35,728 bases of DNA from Podaxis mareebaensis (Eukaryota > Basidiomycota > Agaricomycetes > Agaricales > Agaricaceae). Below the pieces are notes generated by a model. It was not told where the DNA came from and did not search any database. It saw nothing but the letters and a program-made list of their open reading frames with translations. The position numbers and the translations under genes were made by a program. The stretch is taken from contig JAEUWP010000190.1 of assembly GCA_018524725.1 (NCBI GenBank), forward strand, positions 1 to 35,728, read 5' to 3'. This document shows positions 1 through 25,913 of the stretch, piece by piece (within the stretch, counting starts at the first letter, position 1; the number at the start of each line of letters is the position of its first letter).

Positions 1-59
1 TCAGTATAAGAGTCTCAATTCATTCAACATTGATCAGTATACACTGGTATTGTCTGAAT

Positions 60-1010
60 ATTGAGTTCTAACATGATGTTGCAGATGAGGATTTTAAGCA
101 GGTGGGAAGGAGGGAGAGTGTGAAAGTGGAGGGAGCACTACTTAGCAAGTTTGAAGAGGTGGAGTTGGATGGGAATGAGGCCAGCAATAGCCTCAACACC
201 ACCCAAGGGGGTAGTGCAGAATGCACCTGTAATCCACAAAGTGGCTTGTCATTGCATGTGTTGAAGGGACTTGATCAGTCCATGGTATTTGCCATTGCAG
301 TTAAACTAGAGACAGAAGCTGTATATAGTGATAGAAACAACACATGATTGATAGAGTAGCCTCTTGTGTAAGGGGAAGAGCCTGCATATGGAGTTGCCAA
401 GCATGCATATGCAGCAGACAGTAGATAGGGCTTTGGTGGAGTAGAAGTGGACATGTTCTTGGAAATTGAGGCTTCTGTTGAACCAGAAGCCTAGGTAGTG
501 GAGGAAGGATTTGGGGTGGATAGTGAAGGAATCATCAATAGTGATGGGAGAATTGGGGTCATGGGAGGGTCAATTGGAAAAGTGGAAGACCTCAGTCTTG
601 TCTCTTTCAAGAACAAAACCAAGGCAGCAGAGATAGTCTTCACAGGAAGTATAGATCTGTGAAAGAAGGCAGCAGTTAGTTGTGACAGAGTCAGACTGAA
701 CTACAATAAAACTGTCATCAACAAAAGATATGATTTTACAGTGCAGATCATTGGTAAATTTGAACATGAACAGAGAAAGGGAAAGGGCAGTGAGAATAGG
801 GGATAGAGCAGAGCCTTGACTGATGCCTATGGAAGCAGGGAATCTAGGGGAGAGTTGATTGTTCCATGAGTAAGTGGTGAAATGGTCTTTTAAATAATTA
901 GAGAAGAAAGAGACAAGATTGGAGTTAAAACCCTGTCACTTGAGGGTGGCAGTGAGGATGGAATGATTAAGAACTGAGCAACATCAAAGGCAATGACACT
1001 CATCTTGAGT
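60..1010 (-). pseudogene. LINE (non-LTR retrotransposon) reverse transcriptase fragment
   Basis: Read on the minus strand with frame repairs, this is the second half of a fungal LINE ORF2. In order: RT motif A (AFDVAQF, near 970-1000), motif B (GISQGSALSPILTAL, near 780-830), catalytic motif C (SFVDD, 714-728), then LGFVLERDKTEVFHF near 570-625. The conserved tail follows: KRLLYQSCV near 330-355 and WITGAFCTTPLGGVEA near 180-240. That tail is common in Agaricomycete LINEs. Stops and frameshifts interrupt it, and Arg codons are rare because CpG is absent. The N-terminal endonuclease is missing. It is dead; confidence is high for the family and moderate for the ends. Confidence 0.85.
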
Positions 1011-1079
1011 TTGCATTTCTAGCCCTTTCAGACTAGGTGAGTAACATATACACTGGCATCTTCTATTGATTGCTGAATG

Positions 1080-3100
1080 ATGCCACTGAATTGTATTGAA
1101 GAACATTTTCAACAGGCTAAGCAAGCTCAGAGTTTATTTCTCCACTGGACAGGCTCCCCTTGAGAAATTAGAAGCTCTTCTTAAAGCCTTTGAATGCCAT
1201 TTGAGTCATCAACAGAGCACAACTACAATGGTACCTCCTCCCTCAACTACTACCTCACACATCTCCCATTCAGTAGAACTGACAGTTATCAGAGAGTCTG
1301 AACCTCTGAGCCTACTGCAACCATTCTGAATCATTAAACCACCACTGTATCATTCAACTCAACTGTCAACCCCAGAATGACCTGTCAAAACCACTCCCCT
1401 AACTATTTTGCCTGAGCATATCACATTGCCAGATGAGCAGTCCACATTACAGAGTTCTATATTTGTATCTGCAATGAGTGCATAGCTAGAGGCTCATCTT
1501 GCTACACCTTCACACTAATCTCTGCTCTCATGGCTAGGACTGGATACATAGCCTTCCTTGAGGTCCCCAGAAATGCAAACTTTACCCTTAGTAAACACTA
1601 TCCAAACCTTTGATACTTCTGGAATCAACAAGTCATGATTGTCTTCATTCCAGATGTCAATGCCAACTGATTCTATTCCTCAGAGCTGATCTATTACAGA
1701 GATGCAGAGGCCAGAGTCACATACCACTCTGATACTTCCACAGAGACCAACCCCTCAGATACTGAGACTAACAGGTTCTATACCATTGACTTTGACTCCA
1801 TATAACTTACAATCTCAACCACCTTCTCCTCTACCTAATCCACCTCACAGACCACCAGCTTGACAACAGAACACAGCTATAGCCACTTCTAGAGCTCCAA
1901 GGATTCAACCATTCAACAGTGAACCTTGGAATTTCCAAACATTCCAAGATCAACTATGTCTAGTCTTTAGTGATTATTGAGCTGCATTTCAAGATGTGTA
2001 GATGAAGACAGAAAGAAGATCCTTTATACCCTCCAGTACATGACCAAAGGCAATGCTACTGGCTTCCACAACACATTCATGAAAGAGAAGTGAAATGCTA
2101 CAAACAATGCTTATGAGGACAGTACTTGGAATGATTTCAATACCCAACTTGAAGACCACTTCAAACCAAAGATTGAGGCTACACAAGCAGTTGAAAAACT
2201 CCAATGAGCCTGTCTTAACATCTCCAAATCTGATGTCACCATTTTCAATCAGATGTTTACCCACCTCTTAAGTCAGGCAAACATCACTGACAACAACCAT
2301 AAAGTTCATCTTTATGTTGACACTATCCTTGACTGGGTACAATGTCAGTTGTATCTTACTACTTAACCTCCCACCACCTATGTACAATGGCAAGCCAACA
2401 TTGCTAGGATAGTTAACAACTTCTAACAATACCAAACATGCAAGACTGGTAGAGGTCCTACCTCTCAACTCTCATACCTCAACAACACATTCAATGATAC
2501 ACCTCACAATAAATTCATCTACAAAGAATGTCATCTACCACCCAGCAAACTGATGGACATTGATGCTCTCAAAAAATTCTCCTCCAACAAAGAAGAAATA
2601 CCTGACTTCTCATCAGATGAAGAAGATGACTATGCTAAACAAGGCATCTCAGTTAACACTGTAATGACCAATAGACAATGAAAATGAATGAAGTGCAGAG
2701 CCTGTATATCATGTGGCAAAATGGACTACTAGGCCCACTCTTGCCCCCCTTGCCAATAATGGGGCAGTGTTATGAGCTCACCCTGACTATCCTGTACCAA
2801 CATCATCTATCACACCCTCATCTACAAGCTCAGCCTTCCTGACACCTCCTAAGGTACCACTACTAATACCAATAACTCTATCAACAACTCTACACACTAT
2901 TGCAATGAAGCCTTTGCCAACAGGCACCTTTCTGGACATCCATTGCTATTCTCTGAAGACTGGCCAACACCTGGCCCTCTATTCTATTCTACCAACAGAA
3001 TAATGACCAAAATCCTGTGCATTGCCTGGGAGAATGCTTCCTTCACTCACATCTTTGACTCTGATGGGCTATATACACAAACTATCATCAATAACTTCAA
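1080..3100 (+). pseudogene. Decayed LTR-retrotransposon gag with zinc knuckle remnant
   Basis: The best-preserved part, about 1915-2365, reads as a gag core: EPWNFQTFQDQL, then DRKKILYTLQYMTKGNATGF, then a helix-rich stretch ending near LDWVQCQLYL, with several in-frame stops. Downstream at 2703-2744 lies a CCHC zinc knuckle in which C-x2-C-x4-[Y]-x4-C is readable, with Tyr where His should be and a TAG inside. The upstream Gln- and Thr/Pro-rich portion (1086-1330) fits a gag N-terminus. No protease, RT or integrase follows, so the element is truncated. Ty3/Gypsy type is my best reading; Copia cannot be excluded. Confidence 0.7.
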
Positions 3101-3104
3101 CTTA

Positions 3105-4640
3105 TTGTAGAGGGTATAAACTAAGTAGTAGTTACAAGAATGATGAAATGCAGCTGAGTAGCTACTACTGTCCTCAGATGAGTTCTAAGGGACAATGAAC
3201 AGAAAATAGAGGAGGTAGAGGTTATGCAAAAGTGAAATAGAGCTCAATGAAATGTTCTAAACAATCACAAGCTCAAGATAAAGGTCTCTATAACAACAGT
3301 GCCCTTTACACACAGTATTAGTAGAGAGAAACTCTAAAACTGACTAACTTCACTGACTTAAACTGAACTAGACTACTCTTTTCTCTTAGAACAGCCAGCT
3401 TGAAATGCTCTCTTAGCACCAGACAGTCAGTTTGACATAAGTAGCTACCTCACTAGCAGAGTGCAGATAGCTGAGAAGTCTTTTTCTTTATAAGTGTCTT
3501 TTGTCTTTTCTGAAGTCTTAGGTGTCTTATAGTTCATCTTTTATTGGTCTATGACCAAAGAAACACTTAAACTCTCACTTAGCACTTAGAATTGAGTGGT
3601 CAATCCCTTATGCACTGCTGGGAGCAGGTTCCTTGCCTGTCCAGCTCATGCCTGGGGGGTTTATATATTATAGACAAGATACAAACTAGGAAAGTACAAA
3701 ATTACATGTTACATGGTTTCTAGAACACTTGGGACCATATGGAAACTGGATAATCATATCTGGAATAAGTCTGAGCCTTAAAGCTCAGGCATATCTTGTC
3801 TATAGGCTCCAAGACCACATGGTTAACTGGTCTGGACTCAGATAATCAAATTTTAAGGATGTCTTTTATCATCCACCACATGGTTTCTTTGTTTCAGAGG
3901 TCTGGACCAAAGTAGCTACTAAGCAGCTGAGGTATATCCTTAGTATAGAGATATTCCAGGTCCATTCCATGTGTTTTCTTTATCTTGTAGAGCTAACCAG
4001 TCATTCTGGGGCTTTTGGACATGTGAATTCTTGTGGTCTGGGATTTCTCTGAGGGGTAGCTACTCTGCTGCCATCTGATACCCAGGGGTTTTTCTATCTT
4101 TTCTTTTGGGTAGAGATGTCCTATCTATAGTCTGATAAGTAACTAGTATAGCTACTATATCAATAATGCAAACAGAGCAGGATCTAAGCCTTGGATCAGA
4201 GTCATTACTCATAGATAGGCTATTTATGGCTTCTGAACTTGGAATAATAATGTAGTACAGTTTTCCTGCACAGGAAGTGTCTCTCTGGTTCACAGATGTA
4301 AATCTGGAGTACTAGATAACCAGTCTTGCCAGCTCCTCTGGTTGACCTTGGGCCTGCTCTGTTGTAGCAGAGTAGCTACTTTTGTCTTTCTTAAAACTTT
4401 TGTCCTAGTTCAGTGGCTGGAGATATTCTGTCTCTGTAGCCATGTTATTTTCATAGCTATATTGATGAAAATTGTATTATTTCACCCATGTTTCTATTTT
4501 GGGCATATCATTGTCATGGGCTCATGGTTGGAAGATGATTCCCTATGCTGGAGAACCAATTGTATTCCTCTATGCTTATATGATGTACCCCCTGGAAGTT
4601 GTCCCTCATATCATTTGATATGAAGTCACTCATGGACTCT
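3105..4640. other. No gene recognised; AT-rich TE-derived sequence
   Basis: No reading frame here resembles a protein I know, and only short frames are open. The sequence starts TGTAGAGGG right after the gag remnant and could contain a decayed LTR, but I found no matching second copy or clear end. Its visible structure is five copies of the palindrome GTAGCTAC and loosely repeated phrases around ACCACATGGTTAACTGG and ACCATATGGAAACTGG (3730-3850). Confidence 0.5.
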
Positions 4641-5220
4641 ACTTCAGAGAGGTAGAAGTCTATTATATCAATCTTAACTCCAAAGATCCTCCATCCATTC
4701 CTCTACAGCATACCCAGCTACCTCTGCTCTACAGTGTTGACTCCAATATCCTGAGCATCAACAAGTCACCTCCTGAATAACCACCCAGTGTTCTACCTCT
4801 ACCTCCTCCTTACCTGCCTCCCTATGTCACTACAGACATCTCCTTATCATCATCATCATCATTGCAGTCACCACACTACAGCCCTATAGTCAAGTCAGAT
4901 TCCTCTGACTCCCCTTTAGTAGGGAACTTCACTGTTCCCTCTTCTGCTTCATCCCCAGACTCTTATACTTCCAACTCATCCAATGGACAACTTCACTCTG
5001 ACTTGGACTTGTAGATAGTTCCCTTACTTACTCCTGACCTGTTTACAGACTATTACTGCTACCCAGCTATGTCTCATCTTTCTTGTCTCTCAGACTTATT
5101 CCATTTGTGTCTTGTACTATTTTGGACTTGTTCTATTCCTGTCTTTAGTCTAGTTCTATTCTTGTCTCATCTCCAATCTACAGTTACATACTTTTCTTGA
5201 CTCTTGGACTTAGTACTATG
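4640..5220 (+). pseudogene. Ser/Pro/Thr-rich remnant ORF, unassigned
   Basis: A mostly open plus-strand frame reads VEVYYINLNSKDPPSIPL, then Pro-rich PPYLPPYVTTD, then a long Ser/Asp stretch (SSASSPDSYTSNSS). It is interrupted by TAA and TAG codons. A short TCA/ATC microsatellite lies near 4846-4863. Low-complexity composition and lack of CpG suggest a linker of the surrounding retroelements, not a host gene. I do not recognise the family. Confidence 0.4.
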
Positions 5221-5250
5221 TTGCCATAGTTTCCCAATTAGGACCTTAGA

Positions 5251-5737
5251 TGTAGTGCTTAAATAGCCACTCATGTACTGGAAGTACAAGCTTCCAATAT
5301 TCTCAAATCTCAGAATTATTCTCTTACTCTTCTATGATTGATGTTAGTTAACAATCAGTGTGGTAGTAAACTTTCTATTGGTCACATTCTTGACTAATAG
5401 AAGTTCAACCTCTGAGTGTGCTTAATTGGACACTTGCCTCACCACCACCCTAGCTTAAGCTTAGGTGACTAGTGATAAGGACCATCCTAACAGGCAGCTA
5501 ATGGAATACTATGGAAGTTGGATGGTAAGGGAGGTAATATAGAAATGAAATATAAAATAGTATTATAAAAGCCATACCCTAGCAAGTTTGTGGGGGACTC
5601 TGATTCAGAAGTGAAAGAGAAATAAAGTGATATGAGATTAAAACACTTGCTAGAAGTATGAAATAAGGGATAAGGATTGTGAAGGAGTGAGGGAATGTGT
5701 TATGTGCTCAATGTTATCTTCACTTGATGCTGTCACA
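5251..5737 (+). repeat. Probable solo or 5' LTR
   Basis: The segment begins TGTAGTGC and ends GCTGTCACA, giving the TG...CA ends of an LTR. It is followed three bases later by a primer-binding-site-like sequence. Inside are an AT-rich TATAAAATAG/TATTATAAAAG promoter-like cluster (about 5548-5568) and AATAAA (about 5621), as expected for an LTR that starts and ends transcripts. The second LTR is not in the window, so the left end rests only on the TG rule. Confidence 0.55.
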
Positions 5738-5740
5738 AGG

Positions 5741-5752
5741 TGGTATCAGTGA
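5741..5752 (+). promoter_or_regulatory. Putative tRNA primer-binding site of the LTR element
   Basis: TGGTATCAGTGA follows the LTR end after three bases. It differs only near its 3' end from the TGGTATCAGAGC primer-binding site commonly used by LTR elements primed by initiator Met-tRNA. The position just inside the LTR is as expected. About 900 bp of leader without a recognisable gene (5753-6654) separates it from the next ORF. Confidence 0.5.
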
Positions 5753-6654
5753 TTTCCTAGTTCAAGTTTAAACTAGACTGTTTGTTCTAAATTGACAAGT
5801 CTCTGGCATAGTGTCACTACAATACACAAGTACCAAAGAACCAAAGGTAGCAAGAGCAGCCCCTTGCTACTACTAGAAATATACCAATGAGTACCAATGA
5901 GTACTTTGACTGGCAATATGCAGCTGCAATGTATTCCTAGTTAGCCCTACTAAGGCTAACTTCTGGTTCTCAACTTATGGAAACTTCTGGGTAAATAACT
6001 GGGTCTTTGTGAGAACATCCATGGGTATGTTGGTGATGCTAGTTATCACTGTATTGTATTCTGCTTATGGAATTTTGTGCAGACTTAGTTTCTCTATGCC
6101 AGGATTCAGAAATTCCATATTTCATTCTGTTGAGAGATTTCCTAGCTTGAGTTTCCAATCTTGAAAACCCATAACCCTGGGGGCTTCTATCATCTCTGAG
6201 GCCATCACCATGGAAAGCTTGGACTGGGGTTTGTCTGGAGAAGACTTGAGGCTTCTGTGAAGCTCAATTGTGTCTTCTATCTAATTATAGATTCTTTGCA
6301 GACCCTGAGCATTCAGTCCCTGAATGCTATAGATCAACTTTATGAAGTCTATGACATGTAGCTACTGATTGCAATTGTAGTTCTGTAAATCATTTCTGGA
6401 ACTTCTGTGAAATATTGAGTTCATTTCCTTTGTGGAAATGGAGAACTCATGTTATTGCAACAAATTATTACCCTATTTCTAGGAATGTCTTCTGTATTCT
6501 GTATTAACTAGAACTTTAATTCTAATTACCTTCTGGGGTGAGTTTCATCCAAGTCTGCAGATGCCTGATTTCTGTTATATAGAGGGATTGATGCTAGTCA
6601 ACTCCTCACAATCCTACTAGCTCTATACCAATTCAATTATCATTACCCATCCAC

Positions 6655-6981
6655 ATGTCAACCCCAATGTCTGCAAATTCTCCCACCACTAATGCCTTGG
6701 AAGCTCTGCTTGCTCAAAAGCAGGCTGAAGAAAAAGCTGAAGAAGATCATCTCACAAGGGAACTTAAGGAAAAAAAGGTGAAAGAGGAGAAAAGGAAGCA
6801 GAAAGAGGAGAAGTGGGCCAGGAAAGAGGTGGAATGCTAGGCCAAGGAAGAGGAGGATAAGAGGAGGAGGGAAGAAGAAGATTGCTGGGCTCATGAGGAA
6901 GCAGAATACATGGCTCATGAGTTAGCTGTGAAGAAAGAGGCTGAAGTGCATTGGGCTCTCCAGCTCAAAGAAGAGGAGTAA
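6655..6981 (+). pseudogene. Coiled-coil ORF of the LTR element
   Basis: The frame starts MSTPMSANSPTTNALEALL and continues as an unbroken Glu/Lys/Ala-rich coiled coil (QKQAEEKAEEDH, KEEKRKQKEEK). A TAG at 6838-6840 interrupts it, and the same frame resumes with AKEEEDKRRREEED up to a TAA at about 6979. Similar N-termini with long charged coiled coils occur in gag-like ORFs of mushroom LTR elements, as I remember them. Cys and Trp sit at heptad places usually held by Arg, consistent with CpG loss. The rest of the element is missing, cut near 7066. Confidence 0.55.
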
Positions 6982-7088
6982 GTTGTACTGAAGTTCTGTG
7001 GTTTATGAGAACTTTATGAGTACTTGGAGGAGATAGTTACAAAGGTGTCATTTTAGAAGGGGTAGTCGGATCAAGTACCCTGTCTAAT

Positions 7089-8646: not shown

Positions 8647-9201
8647 TTTGTTGAGAGCCGGAGGAAAAAGTCGGGGCTGACGGGGGATTGAGGAAGCTGG
8701 TTATCGAGGTTACTGGATGCACGATTCGAAAAGGAACAAGGTTGAATTCCAGCTAATCTTCGGAATCCCTTGACCGAACTTTCGGTGCGCTCTGCTTTCG
8801 TGCTAATTCCATTGGAAGTGTTTATAGCCGACGCATGGTTTATGAGTAAAGGGTGAAAAATCATATGAGATTACTGCTTACCGGAATAGAATTCTTTGTG
8901 GATTCCAAGGTGAAGGAGAGATAACAGAGTACTTGGCTACAACCTGGTGAGAAACATGACGCGCTTCTGGCAACGAAATGGGTTGATTGGAAAGATGCCT
9001 TTTCGGGGGAAATCACGTGCTTCGTTAACAATGGATTGCTTTTGCGACTCGATGCCTGGAATTATTATTTCTCATCTACTTTGCTTGTCTCTTGTATCCT
9101 TCAACTACCGTCTGCCCACTTTGTTTAATACCTTCCCCTGCGGAGCAATCCAAATTGGAAGTCCTATCCCCCAACGGCACTCATCCATTACTCCCATACT
9201 T
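8647..9201. promoter_or_regulatory. Shared intergenic region between RCF1 and URM1
   Basis: The 555 bp between the divergent starts of RCF1 (minus) and URM1 (plus) must hold both promoters and 5' UTRs. The URM1 frame is open upstream to 8947, but Urm1 homology begins only at the ATG chosen here, so the upstream part is taken as leader. I see no convincing TATA box. Confidence 0.5.
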
Positions 9202-9602
9202 ATGTCCATATCCCTCAAGATCGAATTCGGTGGTGGGCTAGAACTATTGTTCTCCAACCAGCGCTCGCACAAAATCTCTATTCCCTCAATCGTCCGCAAA
9301 GATGATTCCACGTCATTACTACCACCAGAGAACGGCACAGACACCAAACCCGCTGATATAACCTACCTCATCCATCATCTCCGCGATCATCTGTTGAAGG
9401 AACGGCCGGAACTGTTCATGGAGAATAAGACTGTGTGAGTGGTAGTAACTGAAAATGAAGCTGAGATGATTGACGTGCGCACAGCCGCCCAGGAATCCTA
9501 GTCCTCGTCAATGACACTGACTGGGAGTTGGAGGGAGAGGGAGAATATAAATTGAAAGACGGAGACGAGATTGTATTCATATCGACGTTGCACGGAGGAT
9601 AG
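9202..9602 (+). CDS. URM1: Ubiquitin-related modifier 1
   Basis: Two exons (9202-9434 and 9485-9602) joined over a 50-bp intron encode 116 aa. The protein starts [17 protein letters not shown] and contains [20 protein letters not shown] and, in exon 2, [17 protein letters not shown], then [15 protein letters not shown]. The C-terminal Gly-Gly is the site activated by Uba4 for sulfur transfer. Urm1 works as sulfur carrier in 2-thiolation of tRNA wobble uridines and as a protein modifier, in the cytosol. Length is slightly above the roughly 100 residues of yeast Urm1, owing to an insertion near [11 protein letters not shown]. The start is where homology begins. Intact. Confidence 0.95.
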
Positions 9603-13603: not shown

Positions 13604-13612
13604 GTAGGTACT
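13604..13612. repeat. Target site duplication, left copy
   Basis: GTAGGTACT lies directly before the first TIR base and is repeated exactly directly after the last TIR base (19662-19670). Confidence 0.93.
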
Positions 13613-13823
13613 CAGACTCCTTCCCAGTCACCTGGGATGCTCTTAGATAATACACTTGTTCCGAAGTTTAACTGAAACTTGAACAAGTTTTTAACGCGTC
13701 CCAGGGACTGGCACACAACTCTATTTGTATTAGTTTATCAATGGCCTCTGTACTTCGGCCAACAATACATCACTCCAAACATGCGTGGGAACTGTGCCCA
13801 TGTTACCCGATTGAGAAATCAAC
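13613..13823 (+). repeat. Left terminal inverted repeat
   Basis: 211 bp matching the reverse complement of the right TIR without gaps. Differences are T/C at 13638, T/C at 13673, TG/CA at 13749-13750 and C/T at 13809 (left/right as reverse complement). An internal near-palindrome of about 88 bp begins 11 bases from the tip. Confidence 0.95.
13624..13711. repeat. Subterminal palindrome in the left TIR
   Basis: CCAGTCACCTGGGATGC on the left pairs with GCGTCCCAGGGACTGG on the right, and CTTGTTCCGAAGTTTA pairs with TGAAACTTGAACAAG in the centre. A long imperfect hairpin is therefore possible. The same structure exists in the right TIR at 19563-19650. It may be a transposase binding or end-folding site. 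Confidence 0.75.
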
Positions 13824-16373
13824 ATGACGCGCTGCCAGACATGTCAAACTTTTGTCGATTGGTTTACTCTGATACTTCTCAAAGGAAGCCTTCCTTCCGT
13901 AACCAACATCTGCAATGAGGTCAAGGCTCATTTTGGCTTTGAACCCTGTCTCTTTCAGATAGAGGATGCACCCGCACAGCTTAGAGGGGATGACTGCATA
14001 ACTATTGCAGCCACAGGCTCTGGAAAAACACTCACATTCTGGATCCCCCTACTATTTGTTCAGGGAATTATTATCTTAATTACTGCATTGAACATACTGG
14101 GTGACCAGAATGTTGCAGAACTAACTTCATTAGGTATCAATGCAGTCAATGTGACTGCAGAAAATGCTTCAGATGCATTATTCAAGGTGCAGGCCACATC
14201 TTACCAAAGTCACGTCTGACTTATATTGCTTTGCCAGGATATTGCCAGTGGAGTCTACCAGGTTATCATTGTCAGTCCAGAGAAGATACTCACTGACCCT
14301 CAGTTTCAAGCCCTTTGGACCAATTGCAAATTCCTTAAACAGGTATTCAACATTTCGTGTGATGAAGGCCATTGTATTAGCCAGTGGGGGACTACATTTC
14401 GCCCAGAGTATGGGCAACTGGGCTGCTTACAGTGGATCCTACCATCACACATCCGATTCCATCTCGTGTCCGCAATGGTGCCTCAAAGTATCCTCCAAGA
14501 TATCAAAGAGAAACTTCACATGCACAATGAAAGCACCACCATCATATGAATGTCCAACAACTGTGAAAATATACACATGGTAGTTGAGCCAATGCAGCAC
14601 CCCACAAACAGTATGAATGATCTAATCTGTGTTCTCTGACTTCGAGAAGACAACAAGCCCCCGAAATTCATGGCCTTCATGAACAGGCGACGCGATGCCA
14701 AAGATAGCATCGAGAAACTGTGGGATGATATCCCAAAGTACCTCTAGGAGAAGGTTGTCTATTTTCACTCTGGAATGAGTCCGGAGTACTGTGAAGATCA
14801 TATACGCAAACTATGAACTGGAGAGATCTGGGGCCTTGTGTGTACAGATGCTGTGGGCATGGTAAGTCTACATGTCAACCACATTTGAAATACACAATAA
14901 ACGTACCTCTGTAGGGCCTCGATATACCTGACATCGAGCTTGTAGTGCAAATGGGCTATGTGCTGTCGCTCTGTACCCTAATGCAACACTTTGGTCATGG
15001 CGTGCAGAGCCGACATCACCAAGCCATTGCTATATACATCGTGGAGCTTCAACACATCGATAATACATGTGAATCTATAGTGGCAGGTGAGCAGAAGTGG
15101 AAACGCTTACAACTTGAAAGCGAGGGAGGGTCCAAACGGGTGCGACAGTGTGCTCGGAATGACAGACTCAAGTGCACCAAGCAGGGGGAGAGGAGTGCAC
15201 ATGATATCAATGAAATTAATGGTGATCAGCGGGTTGTTACTGTAGCTGACAGCAACGACGCACCTCCTGCACCTCATATCTGCAAGGACCCTAAACTTCT
15301 ACCGTTCCCGTCCTGCTCCAGCCTCACCAATGACAACTATGAAGTGGAAGTCATGGCTCTCTTCATTAATGCCAAGGCACGCGGCTTCTGTCGTCGTATA
15401 ATTTGTGATCGATATTTTGGAAATCACCTAGCAGGTCAGTCATTTAAGTCTTTCCCACAGAGTAGACAGCTTACTAGGTTTTGCAGATTGTTTTGATGGG
15501 TGTGGATGTAAACGATGTGACCAGGTGGAAAGAGAAACAGTACCAACATCATGACCTGTCTGCTGTGATGTTTGCTTCCCAGACTTGTTTGTTCCTGCAT
15601 CATCACCTCAGGTATCTGGCAAATGACTGTGTGCTAAACACATGTTCAAGCCCAAGCCATACAAGACATCTGAGAAGGAAGCAGCCCTGAAGACCGCCCT
15701 CCGTGCTTGGCAGAATGAAGAATGTGAGAAGTCAAGTCAATTCCACGACAACGAATTCTTCAGGCCTCAACTACTCATGACTGACATCGTACTCCAGCGT
15801 ATTATCGATCTCGCACACTATGTGAAACTCCCCAACATATCAGCTCTCGCAGCACAAACTCACTGGCATTACACCAAGCAGTACAGTGGTGCGCTGCTTG
15901 CAATCATCAACAAGTACTGTCCACAAACCCCCTCTGAAGCCAATCCGGGACCACCTAAACAATCTGCGACACTTCAATCCATGGACATGCCATTAGCTAA
16001 CCCTCCCAACACTGGTGGCTTATCTCCACCAGACCCATCTTCGGCATCTGCAGGGAAGTCAATCTGTCGATGTAAGACCTGCCTTTCAACATCCCACATT
16101 GGTGAGTCCTCTAATTCAAGGTGTCTGTGTCAACTGCTAACTATGCTTGTCAATCTCATTTCAGCATCAAATTTACTATGCCCCCTCTACAGTCAAAGGG
16201 CAGCTGCTAGCTCAAAAACAGGCCATGGCACCCAAGAGGAGACTGACAAAGAGAATGGAGCCAGCACTTCATCAGGGCAGAATAGGTGACAAAAACAATG
16301 CCACGCATGCAAAGGATTCGGCCACATTTCTTCAAGTAGATGCTGTCTGCTATGGGTTCCGAAGGGTGAATGA
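13824..16373 (+). pseudogene. RecQ-type DNA helicase of the transposon, decayed
   Basis: Five exons (13824-14186, 14238-14861, 14915-15434, 15487-16101, 16165-16373) stay in frame over 777 codons with seven internal stops. Motifs in order: GFEPCLFQIEDA with QLRGDDCITI, Walker A ATGSGKT, VIIVSPEKIL, motif II DEGHCISQWG followed by FRPEYGQLG (RecQ signature), VYFHSGMSPEYCEDHI, motif V VCTDAVGMGLDIPDIE, motif VI as QHFGHGVQS, a RecQ-like zinc region (CRRIICDRYFG, CGCKRCDQ, VCCDVC), a C-terminal helical region and a late CCHC-like CHACKGFGH. Six stops are TGA (14547, 14637, 14814, 15552, 15624, 16287) and one TAG (14745). Arg-finger positions of motif VI are His/Gln. It likely unwinds ends or intermediates of the element. 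N-terminal exon boundaries are least certain. Confidence 0.85.
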
Positions 16374-16438
16374 CAAAAGAAGCAGCCGTTAATACCTGTG
16401 CTATCTAACATATCCTCTGTAAACATATCTTCCATAAG

Positions 16439-19326
16439 TCAGTCAATCTCAAGGTCCTCAGGCTCGACCTCTACCAAGAACTCACTGACCTGTTGCCAGG
16501 GAGCTGCGTCTTTGTCCATATCTACATCTGATGTGGCACTCTCCACTTCCTCCATTCCCTCAATGCTTGCCACCCCCTCTATTCCCTCAATGACTTCTGT
16601 GTTCGCTGGCTTGTCAGCAACCTCTGCCTTGTTCCCTTCTGCTACCCCATAATCCAATGTGCCAGATGTCTGTAGTTCGCTCAGGCCACCATACATTTGA
16701 TCTGGGACTTCATATCTAGCTGTCTGTCCTGGTGTGAATGTATGTGGTTTATTTTTCACAAATTCCCTTTGCAGTTTTTGAAGTGTTTGAGTCATGTCTG
16801 GTGGTGAGTGCCGTATTGTTTGATGTTCCAGGTGAAAACCATTTTCAATTGTGACATGGCATTGGCGGTAAAATTCAATGAGGATCGACTCTTCGATCAC
16901 CCTCTGGATTGTCCAATTAGGTCCAGAACCGCCATATATTACCTACTCCATGGTTCGCCAGTGTCATGGCTATGGAAAACCTGCTACTCACCTTGATGTA
17001 TAGATTGTTCCTCTCCACCATCCAATCTACCCCACGGAACCCATCCTCCTTTCCAGTTGGGTTGCACAACCAATTCATCTGAATGATATGGCTTTATGGG
17101 TGGATTATTAGGTTCAAGTTAATGTGAGAATAACAAGGACTGATGCTAGCTCAGGTGGATACAGTTCATCCAAGTTCAGCATCATTTGGATCATGTAGTG
17201 AGCATACTTGTGCTTGCCCATGGCTTTAAAGATAAAAACCCAGTATAGGAATGACTCCTCGACCCATCCGATATCACCTGCCTTGATAGCATGGTGGAGC
17301 TCTAAGTATAGAAGCTCATCTCGATTCCTCAAGATCTGGTTCTTGAAGATGGCATCCTGTTCCTCCTCATTCCTCAGGTCGCAAACTCTTGAAGTAGTTC
17401 CGATGTACTTTTTGACAATCCAGTGTGACATCTCCTCAATCAATACCCAAGAAAGCTCTGCTGCAGCAAAGTCCTCAAGTGAAGTCCATGCTGCATTCTC
17501 CGCTCTTGCCTCCATTCCCCAACAGTCTAACATCGCGGCCCAGATGTCATGTTGAATCACCTGGTGAGTTCTTTGGTAACCTGGTTTTGATCCAAACTTG
17601 CCCGAATCAGTTGGCTGCAGGATACCAGCATGTTGAAACATGCTGTTGGGATCTTTTTGTGACCTATCAGGCTGCACCCATGTCCTCCATAATGCATCTG
17701 CACATGCCATCTTGAAGTGGAACAACCCAGGCACAAAAACAACATATTGAAAACGGTGTTTAGGTGTGTCTTCCACTCAGCATGTTTGCTTCACTGATTC
17801 CAGCCTCTCCTTCATGAGGAGGTCACCATGCACCAAAAGAACCCAATCTGAGATGTCAACATCCCCAGATCCAGCATCAAAACCTTTGCTGGATGGTTCT
17901 CTGAGACCTCCCTGTCGAAGTAAGTCTTCCATCACTTGAATATTCCCATCAAGTGTTGATTCTTTGATGTTCATTGCTCGACATGGAACCTGATGTGTCC
18001 GATGGACTGGAATTTGGTTTACAGGAACTGGCTGGCCAAGCTATTCCTTGTACTTCGCAAAACTCTGAACTCTGTGGACCAGAATGTGCCATACATGCCA
18101 TGAAAGCTGCCGCATCATTGGACTGAGTGGATCCCCCCCAAATATGCTACCACTTCGCTCATAAAACCGCTCCAGGTCATTGTCATCAAAAGTAACTGGT
18201 GTGGTGGACTTCATATTATTGGGATCACGTTCCCATAGTTGTGCCGAGCAACGAAGTATGTTCGTGTTGTCCATATCCATGATTGGAATGGCAGTCACTG
18301 ATGTTGCGCTCACAAAGGAAGAATCGTGCTCAACAGTTGGCTTGGCAACCTTAAATGCAATGTCAAAGTTGTCATATGCAAACGCCATTATCAGGGTCCG
18401 GACAGAATCTCAAAGCTTTTGACTGGCCTCCTTCGACAAAGACTTGACTGCTGAGTGTATTGAAGACAAGCTGACTGATAAGCCAGCATGTGATAACACC
18501 TCGATGACCTTCTCTGGCACCAGTGCTGAGTGGTAGAAGATGCCAAGGATGCTTTGGAGGTAATTACAGTTTTTGTTCCTGTTTTACAAGAAAATTGAAA
18601 TGCAGACAACAGACTTCTATGGAATGTCAGTACGACCAGCCCTCCACGTCAAGGTAGCAAACCACTTACAATGACCATAAGTGTAGTGTTGCGTGAAGCT
18701 ATGTGCGCCGCTTTTTTCTTCCTCTTTCTCTTCCCAACACTCTCCTCTGCAGATCATAGATCTAGACTTTCTGATGTCATGTCACTGGCCATATTGATGT
18801 CATCATTGTCATTTTCCCCCTGCTCGTCATCAACGTCCATGTCCATCAGGGCCTCAGAAGCTTCTTCGTCTGGGTTTCCACGGCTTTGTGTGCCCCTCTC
18901 TTTTGCCTCTACCTCTTCCTTTGGTTCCTTAACCCTCTGTGCATCCAGGCACTCATGCATCAAATTCCATAACTGGGGTGCATTCACTTTCATTTTGGCT
19001 GCAGCTTCCTGCATGAACAATCCATCCAGGTAGGATGATTCAGCATGCTTCACATTGAAATGGAGGCCATGCTGACACTGCGAAAGTAGAGAAAGCTCTT
19101 TCCGCAGTTTCGTAGCAACCAAGTCAAATGCCCATGAGAAGGTCTCCTTGGCATGGTAAGTATGCATGCTTCCAAGTATGTGTGTTACATCATCACTCTT
19201 CAGCATGCAGAGACCAGTGTTACGGTGATGGCCATCATGTAGAACACTGTCAAGGAAGACTGGGATGGATAGATTTTGCTGCTGGAGTGAAGCAAGGACG
19301 GCATCAAATGGATGTTGGGGACTCAT
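16439..19326 (-). pseudogene. DUF6589 protein, candidate transposase, decayed
   Basis: Read on the minus strand from MSPQHPFDAVLASLQQQNLS. In order: a helical N-terminal part (LHFNVKHAESSYLDGLF), an acidic linker (DMDVDDEQGENDNDD), an intron starting GTAAGT near 18670, then GIFYHSALVPEKVIEVLSHAG, FAYDNFDIAFKVAKPTVE, MNIKESTLDGNIQVMEDLL, DISDWVLLVHGDL, FVPGLFHFKMACADALWRTW, GKFGSKPGYQRTHQVIQHD, RNRDELLYLELHHAI, and a tail RVIEESILIEFYRQCHV. I recognise this as DUF6589, very common in mushroom genomes. Stops at 18410 and 17777 are TGA and at 18041 TAG; 16900-17110 is also broken. A transposase role is inference from its place in a TIR element; conserved Asp/Glu in the GDL, CAD and DELLYLE segments could be an RNase H-like triad. 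Confidence 0.8.
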
Positions 19327-19450
19327 TCTGGGTATCTGGTACCAATAGAGATCAGATATTATATAGATATCTTAGATGCTATCACTGCCATCATGGATCA
19401 GCCATGCATGCGGTGGAACACCACTGCTGGCCTGATTTGGAATGTGTCGC

Positions 19451-19661
19451 GTTGATTTCTCAATCAGGTAACATGGGCACAGTTCCCACGCATGTTTGGA
19501 GTGATGTATTGTTGGCCGAAGTATGGAGGCCATTGATAAACTAATACAAATAGAGTTGTGTGCCAGTCCCTGGGACGCGTTAAAAACTTGTTCAAGTTTC
19601 GGTTAAACTTCGGAACAAGTGTATTATCTAAGAGCGTCCCAGGTGACTGGGAAGGAGTCTG
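19451..19661 (-). repeat. Right terminal inverted repeat
   Basis: 211 bp, reverse complement of the left TIR with five substitutions and no gaps. It contains the same subterminal palindrome (19563-19650). Confidence 0.95.
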
Positions 19662-19670
19662 GTAGGTACT
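19662..19670. repeat. Target site duplication, right copy
   Basis: GTAGGTACT, identical to 13604-13612, directly after the final G of the right TIR. The inferred empty site reads ACTAGTAGGTACTAGGTATT. Confidence 0.93.
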
Positions 19671-20696: not shown

Positions 20697-22628
20697 TCAA
20701 GTATTGCTCAAAAGCCAACCCACTTCGTTTATAAGTCTGTTAACGAACGTAGCGGACAGGTTGATAGCTCCCATGAACACATAGCCAAGAAGGAATTTGC
20801 TGAAGTCGACGCGCTCAAAGGTGTTGACGAAATTCGCAGAATCTTTAAAGTCCTCGCTGTGAGTGCCATATGAACATTCATCAGCGCATGGGAGAAGATG
20901 CTGGCTCATAATTTGTTGGGCCGTTAACCAGAGATTGTACTGTAAATCAGAACCATCTTGGTCTGAGGATGGTGAAGGCCACGCCAGCTCTATGCTACCG
21001 GGCTGGGGAAATGGATCACCTTAAAGTCAATTAGCCAAGGCTCGTCAAGGTAGAAGGTCAACTCGAAGACCTACTTGAGGCATGTGCTTGCTGTAAGACT
21101 CGAAAATGACAGCGCCATAAAACGCTCGAGGTTTCATCCACGTTGATCCAGAATTGACCTGATGCGTCTTCATTGCAAAGATAATCAAAGAACGAAGCAT
21201 GGAAAGGGATTATTGGCGTTGTGTCCGCGTCTTCAGGGCTTGGGATACGAAGGACAGAGTGGAGCTTGTGAAGGGAGCCATATGCGACATTCTGTTTGAT
21301 CCCGAGGAGGTTGCACAAGTGCCAAAACGAAGTAGAACCTGAGTTCCAGCCTCCAGAGCTGATTTTGAGCATGGTCAATCCGAGTATTCGGCGGGTGACA
21401 GCATGGTAAGTATTTTTGGGTATAAGCTCAATGATCTGGGTATACAAAACGTGGAGGACAAGAAGTGGATCCTGATAGCTTTTGACAAACAAGGACGTCT
21501 TTCGCGCAATCGATACTATGTCCTCAAGCTGGGATACTGGATCTCCCACAAGAGGGTCGTCAACGAAACGTGCGATTGCAGATGCAAACGCAAAAAGGCC
21601 AGATGCCGCGTGTACAAGGATCACGATGTCGCGCTCTTGCGGCCATTGTGATGGTCCCACTGGTATCACATACGGATGTCTCCTCCGTATATCCTCGAAT
21701 TCGGCTCGCAAATAAAGTTCCACGTCTTTGCAGGCCTCATCGGAGTCCACGGGGATGTATATCGTCCAAAGCTCCTGTTGTACGTGTTTTTGTTCGAAGG
21801 CAATCTTCAGGTGCTGTTCCGGACGACTCGCAATGACCCATAGCAAAGGAGCATCTGGGTATTCTCGGACAAACTCGCTGACGAGCTGGATAATTTCGAC
21901 TTGTGCTTTCTCTCCATCGCACTCGTCAAGACCATCCAAGAAAATAGATAAAGGCTGGCGAGGGTTGACCAGTCGCCGCTGGCCAAAGGGCTCTGCAACC
22001 AACTTCCTGAACTGCTCGCGCATACCCTTCTCAAATAGCTTTGGATTGCTGTGCAGTTGCTCCTGCACATACGCCAGGTAAAGGGGCTCCTTCACAGCAA
22101 GTTGAAACGAGATGGTCGTCCATACGCGCGAAGGGTCACCACGCCGAAAGGGCCGGGAAAAGAACAGCGTAGCAGCCAACCGTTGGGCGTCTGCCTCGAG
22201 TTCTGCAAGAGACTGTATGATTGCAGATTTTCCAACACCGGCAGGGCCGTAAAGCCACAGTAGCCTTCTCTCTGGTTCCAACAGGAGCAGCCATGCTTGA
22301 ACAGTGGTGATTATCTCGATGCGGGTTCCAGGGTGACATCGTGGAGGAGGGTCACGGACGGACGAGTCAAACTCGGCTCCACTGATCGTTCGTTCCGCGA
22401 GCCGGTCCAAGACTATGATAATGCAGGTAATATATATTATATGGTAAGTCAGAGAACTCAGGAACGTGTGTCCCTTAAACGCTCACCTAAGGACGACTGA
22501 TTGTTGATGTGAATGGTCTCGCCCAAGACTGGATCAATCATTACAAAATCGCGTGCTTTTTTGAAGAAACCGTTGGATTGAGGAAGACGATGGTCTTTCA
22601 TGGGAGGCATGTGCTTGAGCATGGTCAT
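20697..22628 (-). CDS. NACHT-type STAND NTPase (short NLR-like protein)
   Basis: Three exons (22487-22628, 21071-22412, 20697-20994) join in frame to 593 aa. Exon 1 encodes a short N-terminus (MTMLKHMPPMKDH ... DPVLGETIHINNQ) like the variable leaders of mushroom NACHT proteins. Exon 2 has Walker A GPAGVGKSA (about residue 103), PFRRGDPSRVWTTISFQLA, Walker B LSIFLDGLDEC (about 203), VIASRPEQHLKIAF (sensor region), then the winged-helix-like part ILGLTMLKIS and IIPFHASFFDYL. Exon 3 (LWLTAQQIMSQHLL) is a helical end. No ankyrin, WD40 or TPR repeats follow, so it lacks the usual sensor. Such proteins are linked to fungal self/non-self recognition; the ligand is unknown. The exon 2/3 donor (GTCTTC) is weak. 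Confidence 0.85.
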
Positions 22629-23245: not shown

Positions 23246-25913
23246 TTAGCGACCAATGTTATGATCTTTGATCAGGATCTCCGAAGCCTGTAAATATAGT
23301 ATAGATATCATTAACAGAGTCGAATATGACACCATTTAGAGGTGGGAAAACTGACCATTTCGCCGATCGCATAAGCAGCAGAGACCGTATGAGAGGAGAT
23401 TGCCTATTGAATCCCCATAAGTCATTCAATATTTTGCGTCATAATGACCTAAGTGACGTACCAAAGGAAGTATAGATAAGTCCGCCTGTCCGGTTGTCCC
23501 AGCATCAGAAACATATTACATTCAAAAAGCGACAACATACCACTCTCAACCCATCAACACCATAAACCCTCAATCGCTCATCAACAACGCCCCCATCTTC
23601 TCTTGGCATCATTGCAGCAGTGCCCACAGCGTGGAAAATGGTCCTAACCCAACCGGTTATATGTGCCTCCAGAATTTCTCTCATCTGCGCCTTTGATTCA
23701 TTCTCAGCTTCCGACTCCGGTTGGCAAGCCTTCTCAAGGTCAATTGTAGACAACTCTGCTGGGAACGCCCAGGACTTCAGGGCGCTTTTGAGAGGTTCTA
23801 TTTGTGTGAGATGCATGATAAACTCGAGGCCTTGGAGGAGGAGCGTGCGATCGGTCTTGTATGAGAAGATGTTCGGGTCAATCTTTGGGTATGGAAGTTC
23901 AGCTGTAGCTGAATCCAGGTTTGACGGAGAACGATGTACGGTCCCGCGGGAGAATGGGTGCATGAGGGATGCTGTGAGGGTAACGTATCGCTTTTTTGCC
24001 AAAATGTCTCGATTTGGGGGTGTCAAACCGTTGATGGGTAGGTGCCCTAAGAAGTTGATTATTCTGATATATATAGAGTAAGAATTGCCGAGATACAGAG
24101 AAGTGAAAGCGACGCACTCAACCTGAGGCTCGGCCGGATCAGAGAACCATTTCGTTTGAAGTTTCCACTGCTTTCCGTAGCCGTGCTGGACCTCCTGGGG
24201 AAGGCTGTTTATATACTTCTCACGTTCTGTCTGAAGTTGGTTTGTGATGGTCTCCGGCGACGTCCCAGTAACATTGGAGAGATGTTGAAGCGAAAGAAAC
24301 GCAAATCCCTGGGTGGGGCAGTCCGCGAGCAGACCCTCTTTCTTTTCGTCGCTTCCGGGTTGAAACGAGTTAGACGTTGTGTGAAGGCTCGAGCAAGAAG
24401 CCTACTATAGTTTCTGTTGTTTCTCCAACTCTTTTGCATCCAGGAGTATTTCGTTCGTGACGTAACTCTCATCGGCCTCGGCTATCACAGACACTGATAT
24501 GTGATCCTCTGTGCAAGTAATGTTCCTATTATTCGACAGGATCGAGTTGTGGAAAGGTGGACGCTTACGCAGATTCCCACCTACACCAGGAAGGTCGACA
24601 ATGCATTCAGTCCCATGCTGTCTCAAAACGCCGGGATTGCCAATCCCGGAGCACTCTAGTATGTCAGGGGTCTTGAACGTGCCTGAAAACATTTCTCCAA
24701 TCAGGGAACTGTTAGCTATTAATAGCTGAATGATTGACCTGTCGAGAGAATGATATCGCGACGGATATTTCTCACTTCCAGACGTTTCTCAGAACCTGGA
24801 ATGTGTAGCTCAACACCCACAGCCTTTGACCTCCCGGAACCAACAACTTTATCGAAGAGCACCCGAGTAACCGTTGCACCAGTCAAAACGAATATGTTTT
24901 CTCGGCTGCTTATGATGGGTTCAAGATAACCCGAGACAGAGGAAGACCGTATACCCAATTTGGGATCTATAGTCATGAGAGGTTTTGCGAACCCGATGTT
25001 GGAACCATTGCACTAGAGGAGCTTCCTTTTTAGAATGCGACCGGATGCAGTTCAGGTAATGGTGTGATACCCACGGGTTCCGGGTTTTCTGGAACGCCGA
25101 GTTTTCCAATTGCCTGGAAAAACAAGTCGTTCAGGCCAAGATTTCCTTGCTCGGGCTTGAAGGAATTGTGGGACGGCCAGCGCGGTGGGTGTGAATGATG
25201 GATTGGTCCTTGAGTCCCATGAAATGATGGGTCAGGCACTGGAACATAAGCGCCGGGCGGTGCATTCCGCCTTCGTGTTTCAATTGTTTGATATTGGGAG
25301 AAGTTTTCGCTCTATGTGGTTAAGTTGAGAGGAACCAAGGACGAGCTCTGAGTATCCTTACTCTTTTCATGCATTCTAAAAGGTTGTCCCAGTTCCAACC
25401 ATCATTACCAAAAGTGGTTTGTAGCGCGTCGTACTCTTGTTTTGACGGGCGCGTAAGTCCCAAGTAATTGATAAGGCTTGATCCTCCGAGGCCTCTCCCA
25501 CGGGGTACAGGAATAATCCGGTTTTTTGAGTTTGCTTGGGGCACGGATTGAAAAGTCCAAGCATATAAAGGATTACTTATCACACGGCCCATGAGACCTA
25601 CATCACGTCGGTGGACGATCCAGAAGATTAGAATATGTTCCTACCTGGGGTGTCAATAATAGGGATTGAACCAGCCGCTCCGTGGTAAATGCCAGCTTCA
25701 ATGACCCCGATAGTGAGGTTGGTACTTTCCGCTAGTCTGCGATCATGGATATCTGTTAAGCCATGCTCTGATCAGGGTGATCAAAAACACTGCATCAACG
25801 CACCTCCGGGCGACTACTAGTCCTGCTGTTCCTCCACCGACTATCAAGTAATCAAAAGGGTTGTCCTTGCTGTTTGATCGTTCGATAAAAGCATCAAGAG
25901 TGATTATGGGCAT
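23246..25913 (-). CDS. GMC oxidoreductase (FAD-dependent alcohol oxidase/dehydrogenase family)
   Basis: Twelve exons keep frame and give 678 aa: 25804-25913, 25645-25736, 25362-25597, 25075-25311, 24739-25012, 24569-24682, 24406-24508, 24118-24351, 23541-24063, 23462-23485, 23356-23403, 23246-23287. FAD site DYLIVGGGTAGLVVARRLAE lies at the N-terminus. GMC signature 1 is RGRGLGGSSLINY and signature 2 ILSTGTFKTPDILECSGIG. Later come GVGGNLQDHISV and, at the end, the catalytic pair: His about 611 in HAVGTAAMMPR and His about 654 in AISSHTVSAAYAIGE. No signal peptide is seen (MPIITLDAFIERS), unlike secreted aryl-alcohol oxidases, so an intracellular oxidase or dehydrogenase is likely. Substrate cannot be told. 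One exon is only 24 nt. Intact. Confidence 0.92.

Follow-up and report, generated by a model that had tools for sequence, protein, structure and literature searches.

Among the described DNA transposons, the closest to the element reported here are those of AcademH, a helicase-encoding lineage of the Academ superfamily which, according to the available text of the papers cited here and below, is found in animals and fungi, generates target site duplications of 9 or 10 bp (PMC10045372) and has been recorded in Basidiomycota, Ascomycota and Mucoromycota (PMC10799480); the lineage was published in Kojima 2020 (Mob DNA 11:15). A RecQ helicase in Academ was mentioned as early as 2013 (PMC3627910), the superfamily is counted among those with a DDD/E transposase (PMC9587614), and in Marasmius oreades nonautonomous Academ elements, like MULE ones, have been called widespread (PMC8290104). 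KolobokH, also a DDD/E transposon encoding a RecQ helicase, has only fungi as known hosts (PMC9587614). We here describe a transposon from a 35,728-nucleotide stretch of DNA of Podaxis mareebaensis, analysed as a whole and referred to below as the window, which is very probably a decayed AcademH member of the Academ superfamily, matched to AcademH by its published description.

The transposon spans positions 13613-19661 of the window and harbors two genes between long terminal inverted repeats (TIRs) [Table 1]. The first-pass annotation of the window had described 211-bp TIRs, identical at 206 positions, and a perfect 9-bp duplication of the target site. A mechanical arm search and a position-wise comparison of the outer arms confirmed the former, with mismatches at positions 26, 61, 137, 138 and 196, and the latter was recovered as GTAGGTACT on each flank. 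When duplication lengths of k = 4 to 14 were tried, the flanks of this element matched in full at k = 9 only; the chance of a 9/9 match, estimated at random places of the window, was ~1.5e-5 (200,000 trials). Both genes point into the element, the RecQ-type gene from the side of the left arm and the DUF6589 gene from that of the right arm, and they converge near 16.3-16.4 kb.

Table 1 Coordinates of the transposon features in the window
Feature	Position	Strand	Basis or remark
Target site duplication, left copy (GTAGGTACT)	13604-13612	.	Same as 19662-19670
Left terminal inverted repeat, starting CAGACTCCTTCCCAGTC	13613-13828	+	Arm of 216 nt; pairs with the right arm at 97% complementarity
RecQ-type helicase gene, helicase core	13824-15493	+	PF00270; best PDB matches RecQ-family
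220-codon open frame downstream of the helicase core	15627-16286	+	No Pfam match
DUF6589 (PF20231) gene, putative transposase	16439-19326	-	PF20231 match and gene model
Right terminal inverted repeat	19446-19661	-	Arm pairing with 13613-13828
Target site duplication, right copy	19662-19670	.	Identical to 13604-13612

The helicase core was modelled as three exons (13824-14186, 14238-~14872 and 14915-15493, with approximate ends), the splice sites of this gene model of our own having been read by eye. The ORF at 13815-14216 (+) is a DEAD helicase by Pfam (E 6e-8), and that at 14220-14546 (+) yielded a DEAD match below the curated Pfam cut-off (E 0.0011). Upon comparison of the joined helicase piece with PDB sequences, the best matches were RecQ, BLM, WRN, RECQ1 and RECQ5, with E values down to 9e-19; since these belong to the RecQ family, the name RecQ under which the gene had been annotated is correct. 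The helicase frame is broken by four in-frame stops located between 14541 and 14872. The open frame downstream of the core, which has a counterpart elsewhere in the genome only in the second long element described below (37% identity, E 2.1e-15), probably encodes the C-terminal portion of the helicase.

The gene on the opposite strand was modelled as four exons (19326-18670, 18577-17135, 17078-16992 and 16942-16439). Gene model and splice sites are here, too, our own reading, and the 3′ boundary of the first intron is provisional; exon 2 was begun one base further on because a plain AG acceptor at 18578 leads to the wrong frame. Its annotation as a DUF6589 gene was borne out by a match to PF20231 over 17135-18577, with stops read through (Pfam, E 1.3e-75), and the minus-strand ORFs at 17117-17776 and 17780-18040 each matched the same family (E 4.7e-48 and 1.1e-16, respectively). 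Four in-frame stops interrupt the model, at codons starting at 18756, 18412, 18043 and 17779. Searched against PDB by sequence, the single DUF6589 frame had no match, and a DUF6589 profile gave one PDB match at chance level (E 1.1). To look into the RNase H-like fold suggested in the first-pass annotation, the window frame was aligned with three pieces from the second long element and modelled with AlphaFold2, which returned a low-confidence model (mean pLDDT 33.7, pTM 0.20). Relatives of DUF6589 were sought in viral contigs, prokaryote genomes and plasmids, and none was found there.

Searching the genome (36,954,825 bases in 429 contigs) with the TIR yielded 11 matches at eight loci, two of which are long two-ended elements, namely the window copy (C264) and a 6065-bp element at C352:6971-13035. 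The latter has the same outer bases as the window copy, is flanked by a perfect 9-bp duplication, GGTCAGAAT, and carries both genes, to which the window proteins aligned in tblastn at 36 to 58% identity (transposase pieces) and at 51 to 63% (helicase core). Two short two-ended copies were without genes in blastn comparisons: one of 869 bp with a perfect 9-bp duplication (C220:27452-28320), the left end of which is missing some terminal bases such that its boundary was placed at CAGAC, and one of 164 bp (C130). At C275, C292, C8 and C290, one TIR end each was present within the 6 to 10 kb fetched. The terminal 17-mer, at up to 2 mismatches, matched 49 times versus 11 times for a reversed control.

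PF20231 matched the genome five times in two places only, which are the two long elements. The helicase piece, for its part, gave 11 matches at eight loci, six of them inside or beside TIRs (the window copy, C352, C394, C150, C268 and C353). At C394, a helicase fragment lies between 206-nt arms that are 99% complementary; at C150, the 5′ parts of both the helicase and the transposase genes lie between arms (E 4e-5 for the transposase N-terminus); at C268, a helicase fragment is enclosed in a 1032-bp element (4189-5220 of the fetched locus) with ends CAGGCTCC and a perfect 9-bp duplication, TGCTAAGTA; and at C353, a helicase fragment adjoins one TIR arm, as judged from the alignment. From these surroundings, the helicase fragments of these four loci represent deletion derivatives, and the presence of both 5′ parts between the C150 arms indicates that the gene pair was present in a further copy. 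The helicase matches at the other two loci (C415, 30% identity; C159, 28%) resemble cellular RecQs. The C268 ends differ from those of the other copies, and their association with a 9-bp duplication and a RecQ fragment points to the genome having a second subfamily of TIRs.

What had been annotated as a single TIR element with both genes is, therefore, accompanied by a second long element and by the C150 derivative, and both long elements with these TIRs (2/2) carry the pair. This sharing of the gene pair also bears on another possible origin. MULEs have long TIRs and duplications of about 9 bp, and the TIR and duplication lengths of the window element would suit a MULE (MuDR) element with a captured RecQ gene. 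Such an element would not be expected from a gene pair common to both long elements, and we regard it as highly improbable: MULE/MuDR identity was rejected on the absence of the transposase domain, Pfam having revealed no MULE domain in the element ORFs and PF10551 having been without a match in the whole genome (0/1), with the control matching in 3/14 genomes.

Perfect 9-bp duplications, none of them TTAA, flank four separate elements (window, C352, C220 and C268), and for each of these k = 9 alone, among k = 4 to 14, gave a full match. Whether further copies would show the duplication, a check put forward in the first-pass annotation, had a mixed outcome: C352, C220 and C268 were perfect, whereas the match was weaker at the short copy C130 (7/9) and at C365 and C195 (5/9 each), C79 had no good 9-bp flank match, and C394 had no duplication. 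C365, C195, C79 and C394 are either short or have a damaged end. Short-end pairs with looser matches (C209, C279, C306, C155 and C168) were left out of this tally. Kolobok elements duplicate TTAA, and the four perfect non-TTAA duplications of 9 bp led us to reject KolobokH identity, as did the position of the helicase, which in KolobokH lies downstream of the transposase domain (PMC9587614) but here has a gene of its own on the opposite strand. Despite the RecQ helicase and the fungal host range of KolobokH (PMC9587614), membership of the window element in that lineage is scarcely conceivable.

Both long copies have decayed. All five differences between the arms of the window copy are transitions in CpG-type context (a rule of our own), and under the same rule 16 of the 21 arm differences of the C352 element are in such context, 20 of the 21 being transitions. 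The window element has a ratio of observed to expected CpG of 0.40 and the C352 element one of 0.13, compared to 0.85 for the sequence on the right-hand side of the former; the depletion at C352 is regional, since its flanks are CpG-free as well. We read the arm differences and the CpG depletion as CpG-directed decay of repeats, to which the in-frame stops are due at least in part. The DUF6589 stretch of C352 contains a TGA, and the window and C352 copies both look inactive as far as their sequences tell.

Outside the element, positions 1-7066 of the window contain no CpG in 7066 bases, with 294 expected from base composition, and end at a sharp edge, the first CG being located at 7067; this fits strong CpG-directed mutation of repeats. 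Positions 2000-2750 are a high-copy repeat, present at ~40 places at about 74-77% identity among the scored candidates. C150:65000-74900 and the flanks of the C352 element are almost or wholly CpG-free, while CpG was 0.7-1.1 in the majority of 1-kb pieces from the remaining fetched loci, yielding a two-peaked distribution in this fetched, non-random sample. With respect to neighboring genes, the ORF at 21058-22410 (-), just right of the element, had NPHP3_N and NACHT matches and is an NLR-like gene, a kind common in fungi; the ORF at 23505-24026 (-) matched a GMC oxidoreductase C-terminus, and that at 8947-9438 (+) matched Urm1. Spliced genes, the 37-Mb genome and the NACHT/NPHP3_N and GMC oxidoreductase ORFs are in keeping with a fungal host.

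Because PF20231 was found in this genome nowhere but in the two long elements, DUF6589 is likely the transposase and RecQ an accessory, in line with what the first-pass annotation had proposed; we infer that DUF6589 is the transposase of AcademH. The accompanying claim of a DNA transposon type not known before found no support, as a helicase together with 9 or 10-bp duplications is already described for AcademH in the available text of PMC10045372 and PMC10799480, and RecQ in Academ in that of PMC3627910. Most likely, the window element represents a new family, now dead, within a transposon type that has been published. DUF6589 could otherwise be the transposase of a superfamily of its own, undescribed and unrelated to the Academ transposase, which acquired RecQ and the 9-bp stagger independently. 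Pfam files PF20231 under 'unknown function', our literature search returned no paper naming DUF6589 (PF20231 brought up only an unrelated physics paper), and a sequence link between DUF6589 and the Academ transposase is not part of the case for AcademH. Yet the helicase, the duplication length and the TIRs coincide with AcademH, as would the fungal distribution (PMC10045372, PMC10799480 and PMC3627910, from their available text), which makes a second independent origin less likely, and we consider it improbable.

As an AcademH transposase, the DUF6589 protein would be a DDD/E enzyme that binds the long TIRs, excises the element and attaches its 3′ ends to the target strands at a spacing of 9 bp, this stagger and the ensuing gap repair giving rise to the 9-bp duplication. 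The RecQ helicase may open or process the DNA ends, or repair a transposition intermediate. Short derivatives would presumably be mobilised in trans, and host mutation at CpG sites would afterwards have broken both genes.

Assignment to AcademH provides a likely function, that of AcademH transposase, for a family that Pfam still lists as unknown, and a likely function also for RecQ-like genes which would otherwise pass as host helicases; one genome here offers a small and clear set of copies, with two long elements, deletion derivatives and four perfect 9-bp duplications. AcademX would share the superfamily with the window element if the Academ assignment is right; its members, in contrast, have 3 or 4-bp duplications and a nuclease, and no helicase (PMC10045372, available text), whereas here the duplication is of 9 bp, a helicase is encoded and no nuclease match above cut-off was found by Pfam in the element ORFs. 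The comparison with AcademH, made by its description in later papers, includes no tested difference. The likeness consists of the helicase, encountered here through PF00270 and the RecQ-family PDB matches and present in the C352 element too, of the terminal inverted repeats, and of duplications of 9 or 10 bp, matched here by the perfect 9 bp of the window, C352, C220 and C268 elements.
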